This document shows positions 50,169 through 54,624 of a stretch of DNA of 64,000 bases, piece by piece. The translations under genes and the position numbers were made by a program. The DNA is taken from positions 1 through 64,000 of the forward strand of contig CACDAL010000006.1 in the NCBI GenBank assembly GCA_902550805.1. The letters are read 5' to 3'. Position 1 is the first letter of the stretch, and every line of letters begins with the position of its first letter. This DNA comes from an uncultured Pelagibacteraceae bacterium (lineage in GTDB: Bacteria > Pseudomonadota > Alphaproteobacteria > Pelagibacterales > Pelagibacteraceae). The notes beneath the pieces are model-generated. The model saw nothing but the letters and a program-made list of their open reading frames with translations. It was not told where the DNA came from and made no database searches.

Positions 50169-51284
50169 ATGAGCGAAGAGAAAATTATAGTTAACAGTTG
50201 GAATGAGTGGGATCCTTTAAAACATGTCATAGTAGGAAAAGCCGACGGAACATGTATACCAGCACCTGAACCAGCTTTAGATGCTAAAGTTCCAGAAGAT
50301 TCTGATATGAGAGGACAGTTTGGTCCTAGAACTAAAGACACCGTTGATAAAGCTAATCAATTACTTGATGATTTTTCAAATATTTTAATAAAAAGGGGCA
50401 TTAAAGTTGATAGACCAGATCCAATAAATTTTAATCAAAAAACATCCACTCCTGATTGGGAATCCGAAACCATGTTTGGTTGCATGCCCCCAAGAGATGT
50501 TTTGTTAACTGTTGGGAATGAAATTTTAGAAGCGACTATGAGTTATAGATGCAGATGGTTTGAATACTTATGCTACAGACCTTTATTAAAAAAATATTAT
50601 AATTCGGACCCTAATATGCGTCATGAATCAGCACCAAAACCAAGATTAACTGATGCAGATTATAGAAAAGACTATTTGTCAGACAAAATTGGGATTCAAA
50701 AAAGATTGGAATGGACTGAAAATAAATTTTTTGTGACAACAGAAGAAGAACCTCTATTTGATGCCGCTGACGTATTGAGATTTGGAAAAGATTTAGTAGT
50801 ACAACATGGATTTACAACAAATCTTAAAGGAATAGATTGGATAAAAAGACATTACAAAGATCACAGAGTTCATGCTGTTAATTTCCCAGGAGATCCATAT
50901 CCTATTCATATAGATGCTACTTTCACACCTATCAAAGAAGGTTTAATAATTAATAATCCTCAAAGAAAACTTCCTAAAGAACAAAGAAAACTTTTTGAAG
51001 ATAACGGCTGGGAAATAATTGATTCTGCTCAACCTGCTCACAATTCACCCCCTCCTTTATGCTATTCTTCAGTTTGGTTATCAATGAATGTATTAGTTTT
51101 AGATTCAAAAACAGTATGTGTTGAAAAAAGTGAAGTTTATCAAGCTGAACAATTAGACAAACTAGGAATGGAAGTAGTTCCTGTTGAACTTAGAGATGCT
51201 TATGCTTTTGGTGGCGGTCTTCATTGTTGTACAGCGGACGTATATAGAGAAGGAAAATTAAAAGACTATTTTCCCAAACAATGA
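50169..51284 (+). CDS. Glycine amidinotransferase-like protein (GATM family)
   Basis: NSWNEWDPLKHVIVGKADG, MFGCMPPRDVLLTVGNEILEATMSYRCRWFE, GGGLHCCTADVYREG catalytic Cys region. Confidence 0.88.
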   Translation: MSEEKIIVNSWNEWDPLKHVIVGKADGTCIPAPEPALDAKVPEDSDMRGQFGPRTKDTVDKANQLLDDFSNILIKRGIKVDRPDPINFNQKTSTPDWESETMFGCMPPRDVLLTVGNEILEATMSYRCRWFEYLCYRPLLKKYYNSDPNMRHESAPKPRLTDADYRKDYLSDKIGIQKRLEWTENKFFVTTEEEPLFDAADVLRFGKDLVVQHGFTTNLKGIDWIKRHYKDHRVHAVNFPGDPYPIHIDATFTPIKEGLIINNPQRKLPKEQRKLFEDNGWEIIDSAQPAHNSPPPLCYSSVWLSMNVLVLDSKTVCVEKSEVYQAEQLDKLGMEVVPVELRDAYAFGGGLHCCTADVYREGKLKDYFPKQ

Positions 51285-51512
51285 TTAGTTTGGATTATTT
51301 TTTAAAAATTCAATATATTTTATAACTTCATTAAATTTTTCATCTTCAATATCTTTATAACTTGCATTAAATTTACTTTTTACACAAATAGCTACATGGG
51401 CATAAGGATTTCTTCCTTTTGGATGATTTGGATGTTCTGGAAGTTGACCTTCCAAATAATCGCCAGCTTCCTGAATAATTTTCCAGAGTTTACTTGCGTT
51501 TTCTTTGTTCAT
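51285..51512 (-). CDS. Small conserved-looking protein of unknown function, 75 aa
   Basis: Intact ORF; first 20 codons are duplicated at 53494-53552. Confidence 0.65.
   Translation of the reverse strand: MNKENASKLWKIIQEAGDYLEGQLPEHPNHPKGRNPYAHVAICVKSKFNASYKDIEDEKFNEVIKYIEFLKNNPN
51454..51512. repeat. Direct repeat A, copy 1 (59 bp)
   Basis: 57/59 identical to 53494-53552; differences at 51462 (g/a) and 51507 (g/a). Confidence 0.98.
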
Positions 51513-51538
51513 TCACTTTCAAATAATGATTTATCTCT

Positions 51539-51562
51539 AATATTTCTAGTTTCATTTCTAGT
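51539..51562. repeat. Direct repeat B, copy 1 (24 bp, aatatttctagtttcatttctagt)
   Basis: 24/24 identical to 53352-53375. Confidence 0.95.
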
Positions 51563-51587
51563 ATCCTTTAAAATCCTATAATAGAAT

Positions 51588-53336
51588 TTATTGTCCCAAA
51601 GACTCTTTTGCTTCATCAACAGTATAATTTGTTCCATGTTGTTCATTGTATGCTGAAACTGCGTCTGCGAAACTACTATAACCTAAACCTTGAGCTGTTG
51701 CTTCTAGATCTACTGAAACACCAGCAGATGTTGCGGCCCTAATAGTATCAGCTACCTCTTGAAGACTACTATTAGCAGCAGCTGCTATTTGACCAGCATC
51801 AAAAGAGCTTATAGAGCCTGATTGAAGCGCATTGATAATATCTACATTATCTTGATAGGCCGAAGCATATTCTTCAACAGACCAGTTAGCACCATGTTGT
51901 GCGTTTGCTAAATCTGTTAAGTCAGAATAGTTATTAATATCTATTCCATAAGCATCACCAAAAGATCTAGCAAAATCATCAAGTGTAAAAGAAAATTCGA
52001 ATGACTGCGTATTTAAAGTTAGATCATTTCCAATTTGTGAAAAATTATCAGAATTAGTTTTAATCAAATTGTTAAACTCTTCTAAATCTATTAGTTCTTT
52101 AAAATTTTTCATAGCTAGTTGTGCTTTTATTGACTCAATTTCATCTTTAGACAAAGTTATTTCAATTCCAGCTTCATCAACGATTGATTTTGGAATAGGA
52201 TTTTTCCAAGCATTAGCCCAATCACTAAGTTTCCAATCTTTCATTTCAGTAGCTGAAGCAACCATAAGGTTTATAGTATCTAATTTTACATTTAGCTCAT
52301 CCTTATATACATTTAAAAATCTATTTACTGGAACATTAGAATTTTCTAAATTTAATATATGTAGCTGAATGTCATTTGATTTAATATTTTTATTAAGTTT
52401 CATCGATTTAGTTATTTTTCCTAATATTTCTAATTCTTCTTGTTGAAAGTCATCAAAATTAGCATTTGATAAATCTTGTTCAAATTTTTTTGGTATTTTG
52501 TCTTTTTTTATATTTTGAAGCACAAATTCTGAAATCTTGTATCCACTTAATAACGCTTCGAGATTCTTATCTCTTAATTTTTCAATTTCTATGACAAATG
52601 AAGTTAAAAGCTCATAATCTTTGTTGTCTCTATTTTTCTTTAAATCCTTCGATAAAGCTTTAAAAATTTTATTATATTCCTTATCAAATTTTTTTTCACT
52701 CAATCTCATATTTATTCTATCCTCAGTAAGAGATTTTAATTTGGATATATTTTTTGAGATTTTATTATGTATTTTTATTGATTTTTTTTCTTCTTTAGAA
52801 ATTTTTATAGTTTTAATTTCAGCCTGATTTAAAAGCTTGTACAAAGTGTAATATCTTTTAATAGCTGTTTCAGGACTATCATATAAAGTAAGACCTAGCG
52901 CCTCTCTCATTGATTTTTTTGCTTTACTTAGCCCGTATAATTTTTTTAAATTTCTTTTAGTTGCTGCATTTACTTTGGGATATTTTATCTCGAATATTTC
53001 AAGTGATTTTTTGTTTTCTTTTAATTGTTGCATATAAAAATATTCAAAATATGCCATTCCTAAGATGACTCTATCTGTATATTTTTCCATTAATCCTTTT
53101 TGAGTTATAAATATTTTAATAAATTTTTTGTTAGCAATTGTTTGTTTTTTATAAAAACCAGTTGCTGTTTCTGGAAACATACCTATTGGAGAAAAATCAA
53201 TTTTTTCAAAACTTCCAATATCATTTAGGTCATCTAAAAATACACCTAATTTAATTTCTTTTTCTGATCTTTCGTTGCTATTGGCAATATTTAAATTTAA
53301 AAAAATTAAAAGAATATAAATTACAATTTTTTTCAT
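51588..53336 (-). CDS. Exported 582-aa protein of unknown function, Lys-rich helical body and Ala-rich C-terminal repeats
   Basis: Signal peptide MKKIVIYILLIFLNLNIANS; C-terminal pair YSDLTDLANAQHGANWSVEEYASAYQ / YSSFADAVSAYNEQHGTNYTVDEAKESLGQ. Confidence 0.75.
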   Translation of the reverse strand: MKKIVIYILLIFLNLNIANSNERSEKEIKLGVFLDDLNDIGSFEKIDFSPIGMFPETATGFYKKQTIANKKFIKIFITQKGLMEKYTDRVILGMAYFEYFYMQQLKENKKSLEIFEIKYPKVNAATKRNLKKLYGLSKAKKSMREALGLTLYDSPETAIKRYYTLYKLLNQAEIKTIKISKEEKKSIKIHNKISKNISKLKSLTEDRINMRLSEKKFDKEYNKIFKALSKDLKKNRDNKDYELLTSFVIEIEKLRDKNLEALLSGYKISEFVLQNIKKDKIPKKFEQDLSNANFDDFQQEELEILGKITKSMKLNKNIKSNDIQLHILNLENSNVPVNRFLNVYKDELNVKLDTINLMVASATEMKDWKLSDWANAWKNPIPKSIVDEAGIEITLSKDEIESIKAQLAMKNFKELIDLEEFNNLIKTNSDNFSQIGNDLTLNTQSFEFSFTLDDFARSFGDAYGIDINNYSDLTDLANAQHGANWSVEEYASAYQDNVDIINALQSGSISSFDAGQIAAAANSSLQEVADTIRAATSAGVSVDLEATAQGLGYSSFADAVSAYNEQHGTNYTVDEAKESLGQ

Positions 53337-53351
53337 TATTAATTTATCTAA

Positions 53352-53375
53352 AATATTTCTAGTTTCATTTCTAGT
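53352..53375. repeat. Direct repeat B, copy 2
   Basis: 24/24 identical to 51539-51562. Confidence 0.95.
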
Positions 53376-53430
53376 TTTTTAATTAAATTGATGAGTCTTT
53401 AAGCGATTTATTTTAAGTTAACTTTTTAAT

Positions 53431-53490
53431 ATCCGCATAAGTGCTGTAGTTTAATGCAGCTTAATGTGGATTAGGTTGAACCTCTAATCC
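53431..53490. other. Two overlapping, mutually exclusive hairpins
   Basis: ATCCGCAT(53431-53438)/ATGTGGAT(53464-53471) with internal GCTG/CAGC, and GGATTAG(53468-53474)/CTAATCC(53484-53490); shared bases 53468-53471. Confidence 0.6.
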
Positions 53491-53552
53491 CGTAAATAAT
53501 CACCAGCTTCCTGAATAATTTTCCAGAGTTTACTTGCGTTTTCTTTATTCAT
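53484..53552 (-). pseudogene. 22-codon remnant or leader ORF MNKENASKLWKIIQEAGDYLRD, duplicated 5' end of the 51285-51512 gene
   Basis: Identical first 20 residues to the small gene, then RD and a TAG stop inside a hairpin arm. Confidence 0.75.
53494..53552. repeat. Direct repeat A, copy 2 (59 bp)
   Basis: 57/59 identical to 51454-51512. Confidence 0.98.
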
Positions 53553-54624
53553 CTTTTGGTAACCAAGAATTATACAAAGGATTATCTTTATCTATTGGGA
53601 GTTTAATATTTTTATTTTGTCTTGATGAATCATATACAGCTGTAACAAATTCTAATGATTTCCTAGCATCTAATAGAGTCACTTCATCGCTTGGTAAACC
53701 ATCTAACTTATTTGCAATTTCATCAAACATGCCTGCATACCAGGACTTAGGTTTCTTTATTTTTGATAATACTTCATCAATTTGATTTTGTGTTATGGGC
53801 GCTCTTGCTAAAAATTTCCATTTATCATCAGCAGGATTGTAGGGTTTGTCTGGAGAAGCTCCAGACTCTACTGTTAATCCCTCAAAACAAAATCGAAGTC
53901 TACTAGTATCATTTGCTGCTCCAAGTGTAATAGAGCTTGTAACTAAAGATCCATTTGACATCTCAATTGAAAGAGCGGCACAGTCTTCAACCTCAATATC
54001 ATTTACTCTAGTTGTTAATTTTGCAAATACATTTGAAACTGGACCTAAAATCATACTTACTAAATCATGAATATGAATTGAATGACTTAATATTGCACCA
54101 CCTTGTTCGCCCTCCCAAGTTCCTCTCCAAGGTTTAGAATAATAATCTTTTCCTCTATTCCAATGTGTTTCTAATGATGCAACAAGGGGTTTGCCCACAA
54201 GACCTGATTTAATTAGTGCTTTAAATTTAGAAAATCCTAAACCATATCGATATTGAAAAACTGGAAATATAAATTTACCTGTTTCTTTACTAATTTTTTC
54301 TAGTTCATCTATTTCTTTTAAACTAGATACTAATGGTTTTTCACAAATAACATGCTTTCCTGTCTCTAATGATTTTTTACAAGCAGAAAAATGTAAATGA
54401 GGTGGTAGACAAATATCAATAATATCAATTTCTTTTTCTTTTAAAACATCATCAAAATTAAGAGAAACTTTTGTTTTATTGTTTGAATGTAAAATTTTAT
54501 CAATAGCTTCTCTTGTTAAACCACACAAAGTATGAATATTAAATCTCTCAGATACTTTTTGAAAATCCTCAAAATGTTTAGCTCCTATATTGGTTCCAAT
54601 TACTCCAACTTGATATTTTTTCAT
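53545..54624 (-). CDS. Gfo/Idh/MocA family oxidoreductase
   Basis: YQVGVIGTNIGAKHFEDFQ; VICEKPLVSSLKEIDELEK. Confidence 0.88.
   Translation of the reverse strand: MKKYQVGVIGTNIGAKHFEDFQKVSERFNIHTLCGLTREAIDKILHSNNKTKVSLNFDDVLKEKEIDIIDICLPPHLHFSACKKSLETGKHVICEKPLVSSLKEIDELEKISKETGKFIFPVFQYRYGLGFSKFKALIKSGLVGKPLVASLETHWNRGKDYYSKPWRGTWEGEQGGAILSHSIHIHDLVSMILGPVSNVFAKLTTRVNDIEVEDCAALSIEMSNGSLVTSSITLGAANDTSRLRFCFEGLTVESGASPDKPYNPADDKWKFLARAPITQNQIDEVLSKIKKPKSWYAGMFDEIANKLDGLPSDEVTLLDARKSLEFVTAVYDSSRQNKNIKLPIDKDNPLYNSWLPKDE

Follow-up and report, generated by a model that had tools for sequence, protein, structure and literature searches.

Organization of the locus

The window analysed here is a 64,000-nucleotide stretch from an uncultured Pelagibacteraceae bacterium of the SAR11 group (GenBank assembly GCA_902550805.1, contig CACDAL010000006.1, positions 1 to 64,000 of the forward strand). 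In it, the first ~20 codons of a small gene encoding a 75-amino acid (aa) protein (51285-51512, minus strand) are present twice, as 59-nt direct repeats at 51454-51512 and 53494-53552 that are 57/59 identical (97%) and lie 2,040 bp apart. The second copy begins within the last codons of a Gfo/Idh gene (GATGAATAA), and the two copies enclose a single main open reading frame (ORF) of 582 aa (51588-53336, minus strand) with a signal-peptide-like start. Searches of Pfam and NCBIfam returned no match for the 75-aa protein and no family match for the 582-aa protein, homologues of which occurred in related genomes (89-92% identical in G044 and G050, 38-55% in G022 and G051). An inner pair of direct repeats (51525-51562 and 53337-53375) resembled functional arm sites; a match to this inner repeat elsewhere in the same genome (C4:81508, L003) sat within ordinary genes and was dismissed as chance. 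We conclude that the segment running from inside one 59-61-bp core, as we term the repeated stretch, to inside the other is very probably an integrated non-autonomous cassette, inserted at the 5' end of the small gene by a satellite-type tyrosine recombinase from another element. The features of the locus are listed below, where U and D are conserved element segments upstream and downstream of the core, and Z_U and Z_D are putative arm-type sites on either side of it.

51285..51512 (-): target gene for the 75-aa protein, intact, its 5' 59 nt derived from the inserted element (ORF list)
51454..51512 (-): right (attR-like) core copy, the functional 5' end of the small gene (57/59 repeat; U motif upstream, gene downstream)
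51525..51562 (-): putative Z_U arm site ACTAGAAATGAAACTAGAAATATTAGAGATAAATCATT, two ~10-bp iterons plus GAGATAAA (inner repeat, cassette alignment)
51562..51580 (-): conserved block ahead of Z_U, TATAGGATTTTAAAGGATA; consensus TATAGGATTTTATAGGATAA (ATAGGA count across cassettes)
51588..53336 (-): cargo gene, 582-aa exported protein (ORF list; homologues in relatives)
53337..53375 (-): putative Z_D arm site, variable bases as in Z_U (cassette alignment)
53377..53440 (-): cassette-specific conserved block TTATGCGGATATT...AAATAAATCGCTTAAAGACTCATCAATTTAA (column conservation)
53441..53491 (-): D region adjoining the core, GGGATTAGAGGTTCAACCTAATCC, then CAYAYTA-type iterons (core-copy alignments)
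53494..53552 (-): left (attL-like) core copy, which was the start of the small gene before displacement and overlaps the Gfo/Idh stop (repeat; empty site in G070)
53545..54624 (-): Gfo/Idh/MocA oxidoreductase, left host flank (Pfam)
50169..51284 (+): arginine-deiminase/amidinotransferase-like gene, right host flank (Pfam match just under the cut-off; conserved synteny)

Many relatives carry a threonine-aldolase gene between the amidinotransferase-like and small genes (e.g. L046:3245-4294) that the window lacks (51284-51285). This 1-kb gene was considered as a candidate integrase and rejected, its sequence being that of a threonine aldolase.

Core boundaries and site occupancy across SAR11

The small gene was present in 123 of 201 genomes of the genus, and many genomes held extra partial copies comprising the first 20-25 codons only, up to four per genome. 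In the 40 regions that we read, partial copies formed direct repeats spaced 0.6 to 8.6 kb, with differing cargo between them, and lay upstream of the complete small gene wherever that gene was on the contig. The same 59-61-nt boundary was found again in dozens of SAR11 genomes, far above chance. A DNA pattern combining the core with the adjacent element recovered 97 stretches in genome contigs, mostly from single-cell genomes, and among the matches listed all belonged to Pelagibacteraceae/Pelagibacterales. Alignment of all copies gave a core of ~61 bp beginning at the ATG/GTG of the small gene, preceded by either host sequence or U, and followed by either the rest of the small gene or D. When 186 distinct core copies were classified by their flanks (threshold 8 bits; reversed-sequence controls peaked at 8.8 and 8.0 bits), 61 had U and D, marking a cassette-cassette boundary, 65 had U and the gene (right end), 46 had host sequence and D (left end), 11 had host sequence and the gene (empty site) and three did not fit. 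Core positions 1-21 varied with the upstream flank and position 51 leaned towards the downstream flank, placing the exchange point inside the core; positions 22-50 were nearly invariant or uninformative, and the mapping resolves the exchange only to about this interval.

An empty site was found in genome G070, where the end of Gfo/Idh (TGGTTGCCCAAATAA) was followed directly by an intact small gene (ATGAATAAAGAAAACGCAAGTAAACTCTGG...GATTATTTGGTAGGACAATTGCC). A census of retrievable complete small-gene copies covered 106 distinct loci, of which 53 were occupied, 49 empty and four ambiguous. Direct-repeat att sites with an empty attB in relatives, as for tyrosine-recombinase integrative elements, are thus present. 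The initial annotation, made from the window alone, had proposed an insertion that regenerated the start of the small gene, with the copy overlapping Gfo/Idh marking the original position of that gene, and had named empty sites and other cargo between the same repeats as checks. Its repeat and its single exported protein were reproduced by the repeat search and ORF list; insertion with regeneration was borne out by G070, the census and the flank classes, and the original position by the G070 arrangement. Both the empty sites and the alternative cargo, described next, were found.

Cassette spread and cargo

We recovered 77 distinct cassettes with a median length of 2 kb, in tandem runs of up to three, most with conserved ends around the ~60-bp core. 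One cassette of 2,297 bp and three genes was carried by both L046 and L054 at 99.8% identity; it stood alone in L054 and in an array with a second cassette in L046. The flanks of these two loci were 63% identical on the left, the level of unrelated AT-rich DNA, and 82% on the right, in the 3' part of the small gene. Further pairs were 96-98% identical with diverged flanks, and the cassette in the window was 90% identical to one in G044 that stands ahead of another cassette there. Comparison of cassettes with their flanks shows that whole cassettes have moved horizontally in the recent past. In one pair (L180 and L058) the flanks were as similar as the cassette, and this pair may have been inherited vertically.

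The 80 cargo proteins examined belonged most often to restriction-modification and related defence families (type I, IIG, II and III methylases and nucleases, GmrSD, caspase and helicase-nucleases), and the remainder included small exported proteins. Twenty cargo proteins began with MKK[LI]LG. These proteins (in L047, L062, L063, L105, L108, L112 and others) were mostly otherwise unrelated and had the same signal peptide, MKK[LI]LG(I/V)VVLGLL, which suggests a shared 5' gene module. An unusual, housekeeping-like cargo of TypA/BipA and a DEAD-box helicase lay between two cores at L060:8987-12324.

Matched arm-like sites and conserved blocks

Most cassettes carried at both ends a Z motif of the form ACTnnNNNNN..ACTnnNNNNN...GAGATAAAwCAA, with Z_U just ahead of the core and Z_D ~100-150 bp past it; both were present in 58 of the 77. 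Within a cassette, Z_U and Z_D agreed at 6.14 of 7 variable bases, compared with 3.36 +/- 0.17 for shuffled pairs, whereas the variable bases differed among cassettes, giving 28 variants over the six bases checked. We regard the matched iterons on both sides of the core as putative arm-type sites of an attP. Internal Z-like sites without a core occurred in three cassettes, which look like fusions; the composite cassette at L120:648-6528 had two internal Z sites of differing type with no core between them.

Two further blocks were conserved. ATAGGA of the block ahead of Z_U (consensus TATAGGATTTTATAGGATAA) lay close to the right end of 53 of the 77 cassettes; elsewhere its frequency was 0.016 per 70 nt. 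Ahead of Z_D, cassettes shared a block TTATGCGGATATT...AAATAAATCGCTTAAAGACTCATC; blocks of this type (53377-53440 in the window) were present in most cassettes and were not found at the equivalent place in the circular satellites described below, and a role as an accessory-protein or packaging site is possible.

Circular satellites encode a matching integrase

Scanning viral contigs (IMG/VR) with a first pattern matched L086, and a looser pattern also matched L186. Both contigs were circular, with terminal overlaps of 29 and 81 bp and unique lengths of 9,041 and 8,922 bp, and in both U-core-D lay directly upstream of a tyrosine recombinase gene (581 and 571 aa, respectively). The Z_U of one cassette scored 37/39 against that of L186. 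Other genes on the two satellites encoded an AEP/DUF5906-type primase-helicase and a RusA-like resolvase; no structural genes were found in either. The integrases of L086 and L186 were 62% identical and the primases 66%. Catalytic residues R396, K423, K517xxR520, H544 and Y554 were invariant in five proteins; the satellite integrase matched the phrog_1 integrase profile (E=1e-22) and fell just below the cut-off for Pfam PF00589. No match to the L086 integrase was found in 50,697 phage records, nor did a PDB profile search of the satellite integrase return any. The satellites L086, L186 and L194 have the traits of PICMI-like phage satellites (an integrase and a DUF5906-type primase, no structural genes, <20 kb), although the primase-like protein of L194 differs; for AlpA/Fis regulators, L086 and L186 gave only weak helix-turn-helix/Fis-family matches (E about 0.02).

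In both satellites Z_D fell in the opening codons of the integrase gene, which encode KLxxKLxxxEIKQ. The second Z_D iteron of L086 (AAACTCGAATTA) was the same as its second Z_U iteron, with weaker agreement in L186. The N-terminal codons of the integrase (L086:5724-5850, L186:5126-5200) would therefore double as an arm-type DNA site, so that site and protein N terminus must change together.

In the SAR11 single cell G159 we found a related element directly before a complete small gene, with the U motif between; gene order was the same, and its integrase was broken (59-72% identical). As this element sits integrated at the small gene, the satellites use the small-gene attB. The 80%-complete genome of the window yielded a single phage-type recombinase, a 305-aa Xer-like protein, which was rejected as the agent, being unrelated to the satellite integrase.

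A second docking site at tRNA-Leu

Three more distant satellites (L195-L197; integrase ~30% identical) occupied the 5' half of tRNA-Leu. Direct repeats of 42 and 41 bp, spaced 8.8 and 7.8 kb, were present in L195 and L196, respectively, with one repeat copy belonging to a complete tRNA-Leu(UAA). L197 held a tandem array at a core of the tRNA-Leu type, made up of two cargo cassettes and then a full satellite, and its Z motifs followed the same design. Of all the observations, this array points most directly to a single recombination system common to cassettes and satellites. The first of its cassettes carried six similar type-IV-prepilin-like ORFs (KAFTLIELLVVVAIIGILAAVGVVAYNGYT...; L197:2419-6075, followed by the second cassette and the satellite).

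Model of integration and alternative explanations

We propose that a satellite integrase, bound to the core and the Z arms, would catalyse recombination between a circular cassette of the form U(Z)-core-D(Z) and attB, the core copy at the start of the small gene. The native 5' end would be displaced and left beside Gfo/Idh (attL), and the small gene would receive a cassette-derived 5' end (attR). Because attR retains the core, further cassettes could dock, and repeated docking would build tandem arrays. Comparative analysis of the sequences establishes the insertion with its empty counterpart, its sharp ends, the matching of the arms and the use of the same site by satellites. The satellite integrase would act on cassettes in trans, and the cassettes presumably circularise and travel in helper-phage particles; that the satellite contigs come from a viral collection is circumstantial evidence for induction and packaging of the satellites by a helper phage. 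No integrase was found in the window cassette and none was detected in the other cassettes. Since the window cassette lacks an integrase of its own and satellites with the same att carry one, we take it to be a non-autonomous dependant, one of the possibilities raised in the initial annotation. The same annotation had suggested an undescribed insertion route as another possibility; the chemistry is not wholly unknown, because circular satellites with the same attachment site carry a matching integrase, which makes the route one of phage/satellite-type site-specific integration.

Several observations weigh against this model. A recognisable integrase of the satellite family occurred in 5 of 300 genomes of the genus, few relative to the number of occupied sites, and was not found in the 80%-complete genome of the window; so low a frequency fits cassettes that outlast transient satellites, but also a largely fossil system. 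No cassette was found as an excised circle, some cassettes are composite or have no clear Z, and a search for the cassette-specific block in IMG/VR viral contigs gave no match. In G050 (L261:4979-5260) and G150 (L260:3511-5800), a gene of the 582-aa family preceded the small gene by one to a few bp, and no cassette end was present, so some arrangements at the small gene arose otherwise. These genes could be either a chromosomal source of cargo, caught by faulty excision, or a decayed insertion.

Cassettes might instead be decayed satellites that lost the integrase, kept att sites and cargo, and ceased to move site-specifically. They share the att anatomy of the satellites, one of which (in G159) has a broken integrase, and there are fused cassettes with internal Z pairs. 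We nevertheless consider this unlikely: a tblastn search found no satellite gene in any cassette locus, cassettes have conserved blocks of their own that are absent at the same place in satellites, and whole cassettes that are nearly identical were found in genomes whose left flanks are unrelated. Slightly less probable again is that cassettes are spread and reshuffled by RecA-type homologous recombination between the 60-bp cores, following transduction or DNA uptake, with no integrase acting today. This would suit the nearly invariant, tandemly repeated core, the fused arrangements and the lack of a resident satellite integrase in the window's genome, but leaves unexplained the cassette-specific matched Z pairs, the satellite integrase beside the same site and single insertions where no earlier copy stood. 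RecA-type recombination may contribute to the shuffling of arrays.

Tandem cassettes of one to a few genes each, with a recurring site of ~60 bp, have the look of a cassette platform and may work like one. That they form an integron, with attC cassettes and an IntI integrase, is very improbable, as the predicted site has no GTTRRRY and just one RYYYAAC, the core belongs to the coding sequence of a host gene, and the matching integrase is phage-type and located on satellites, with the recombinase of the window's own genome unrelated to it. Flanking direct repeats could also arise from a transposon with an unusually long target-site duplication or from misassembly, the latter having been foreseen in the initial annotation as what might overturn it. 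Hardly any weight attaches to either, since the structure recurs: many independent single-cell assemblies share the architecture with other cargo, which excludes an artefact, and for a transposon the locus has no transposase and no short target-site duplication, the 59-61-bp core being fixed at one gene position and re-used in tandem.

Beyond insertion by a satellite-type recombinase at this locus, we tentatively put forward a broader picture, for which we would claim slightly less than an even chance: an integron-like cassette economy in SAR11 run in trans by satellite integrases, in which cassettes parasitise satellites, the matched iteron arms (at least 28 variants) form a code for which integrase moves which cassette, and docking takes place both at the 75-aa gene and at tRNA-Leu.

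Relation to known systems

Islands at dusA are inserted by tyrosine recombinases within the 5' end of a protein-coding gene, and restoration of that gene by integration has been argued; excised circular forms were shown by polymerase chain reaction, and the integrase was the one universal island feature (PMC4482086). The system described here is alike in its tyrosine-recombinase-type insertion in the 5' end of a protein gene, whereas its cassettes are ~2 kb, lack an integrase and stand in tandem, the integrase being on separate ~9-kb satellites. PICMI satellites of Vibrionaceae, in the excerpted account consulted, have an integrase, a DUF5906-type primase and small regulators but no capsid-remodelling genes, and a small gene overlaps int (PMC10803314), as a small ORF overlaps the int stop in L086 and L186. 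Hosts and target site differ, L086 and L186 have no proven AlpA/Fis match, and integrase-less cassette arrays were not found in those excerpts. Tycheposons of Prochlorococcus are marine tyrosine-recombinase cargo elements at tRNA genes (cited in PMC10872708, PMC11389934). L195-L197 resemble them, in contrast to the cassettes at the 75-aa protein gene, which mostly have one to three genes and matched iteron arms. CALIN arrays of integrons are tandem gene cassettes without an integrase, possibly moved in trans (PMC11389934), a likeness that ends at the attachment site, where the SAR11 cassettes have a phage-type core and arm iterons and neither attC nor IntI. In the additive flexible genomic island of Ca. 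Methylopumilus, inserts are marked by repeated tRNA-Lys ends (PMC10872708); this too is an insert array separated by gene-end repeats, but at a tRNA end, and neither arm sites nor a satellite partner appeared in the portions of that account consulted.

Regeneration of a gene end upon integration, minimal marine satellites, cargo elements at tRNA genes and integrase-less integron arrays were therefore known already. We found no report of the SAR11 hot spot, its cassettes or its satellites in the literature searched, which excluded the original VEIME and tycheposon papers, and to our knowledge this is a previously unseen, widespread insertion system of Pelagibacter (SAR11).

Implications for SAR11

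Few marine cell types are as abundant as SAR11, which combine a streamlined genome with great diversity of gene content. One small SAR11 gene serves as a docking site where cassettes stack behind one another and the gene stays unbroken, and many of the docked cassettes carry anti-virus genes. This gives a concrete, countable route for accessory and defence genes into SAR11, through a hot spot that held an insertion at roughly half the loci surveyed. Because the hot spot has defined ends, cargo and a candidate recombinase, gene flow through it should be traceable in metagenomes by one DNA signature. Our findings further suggest a layer beneath phage satellites, of elements that borrow the integrase of a satellite. 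They also point to a compact att-site toolkit of natural origin for SAR11, in which genetic engineering is difficult.
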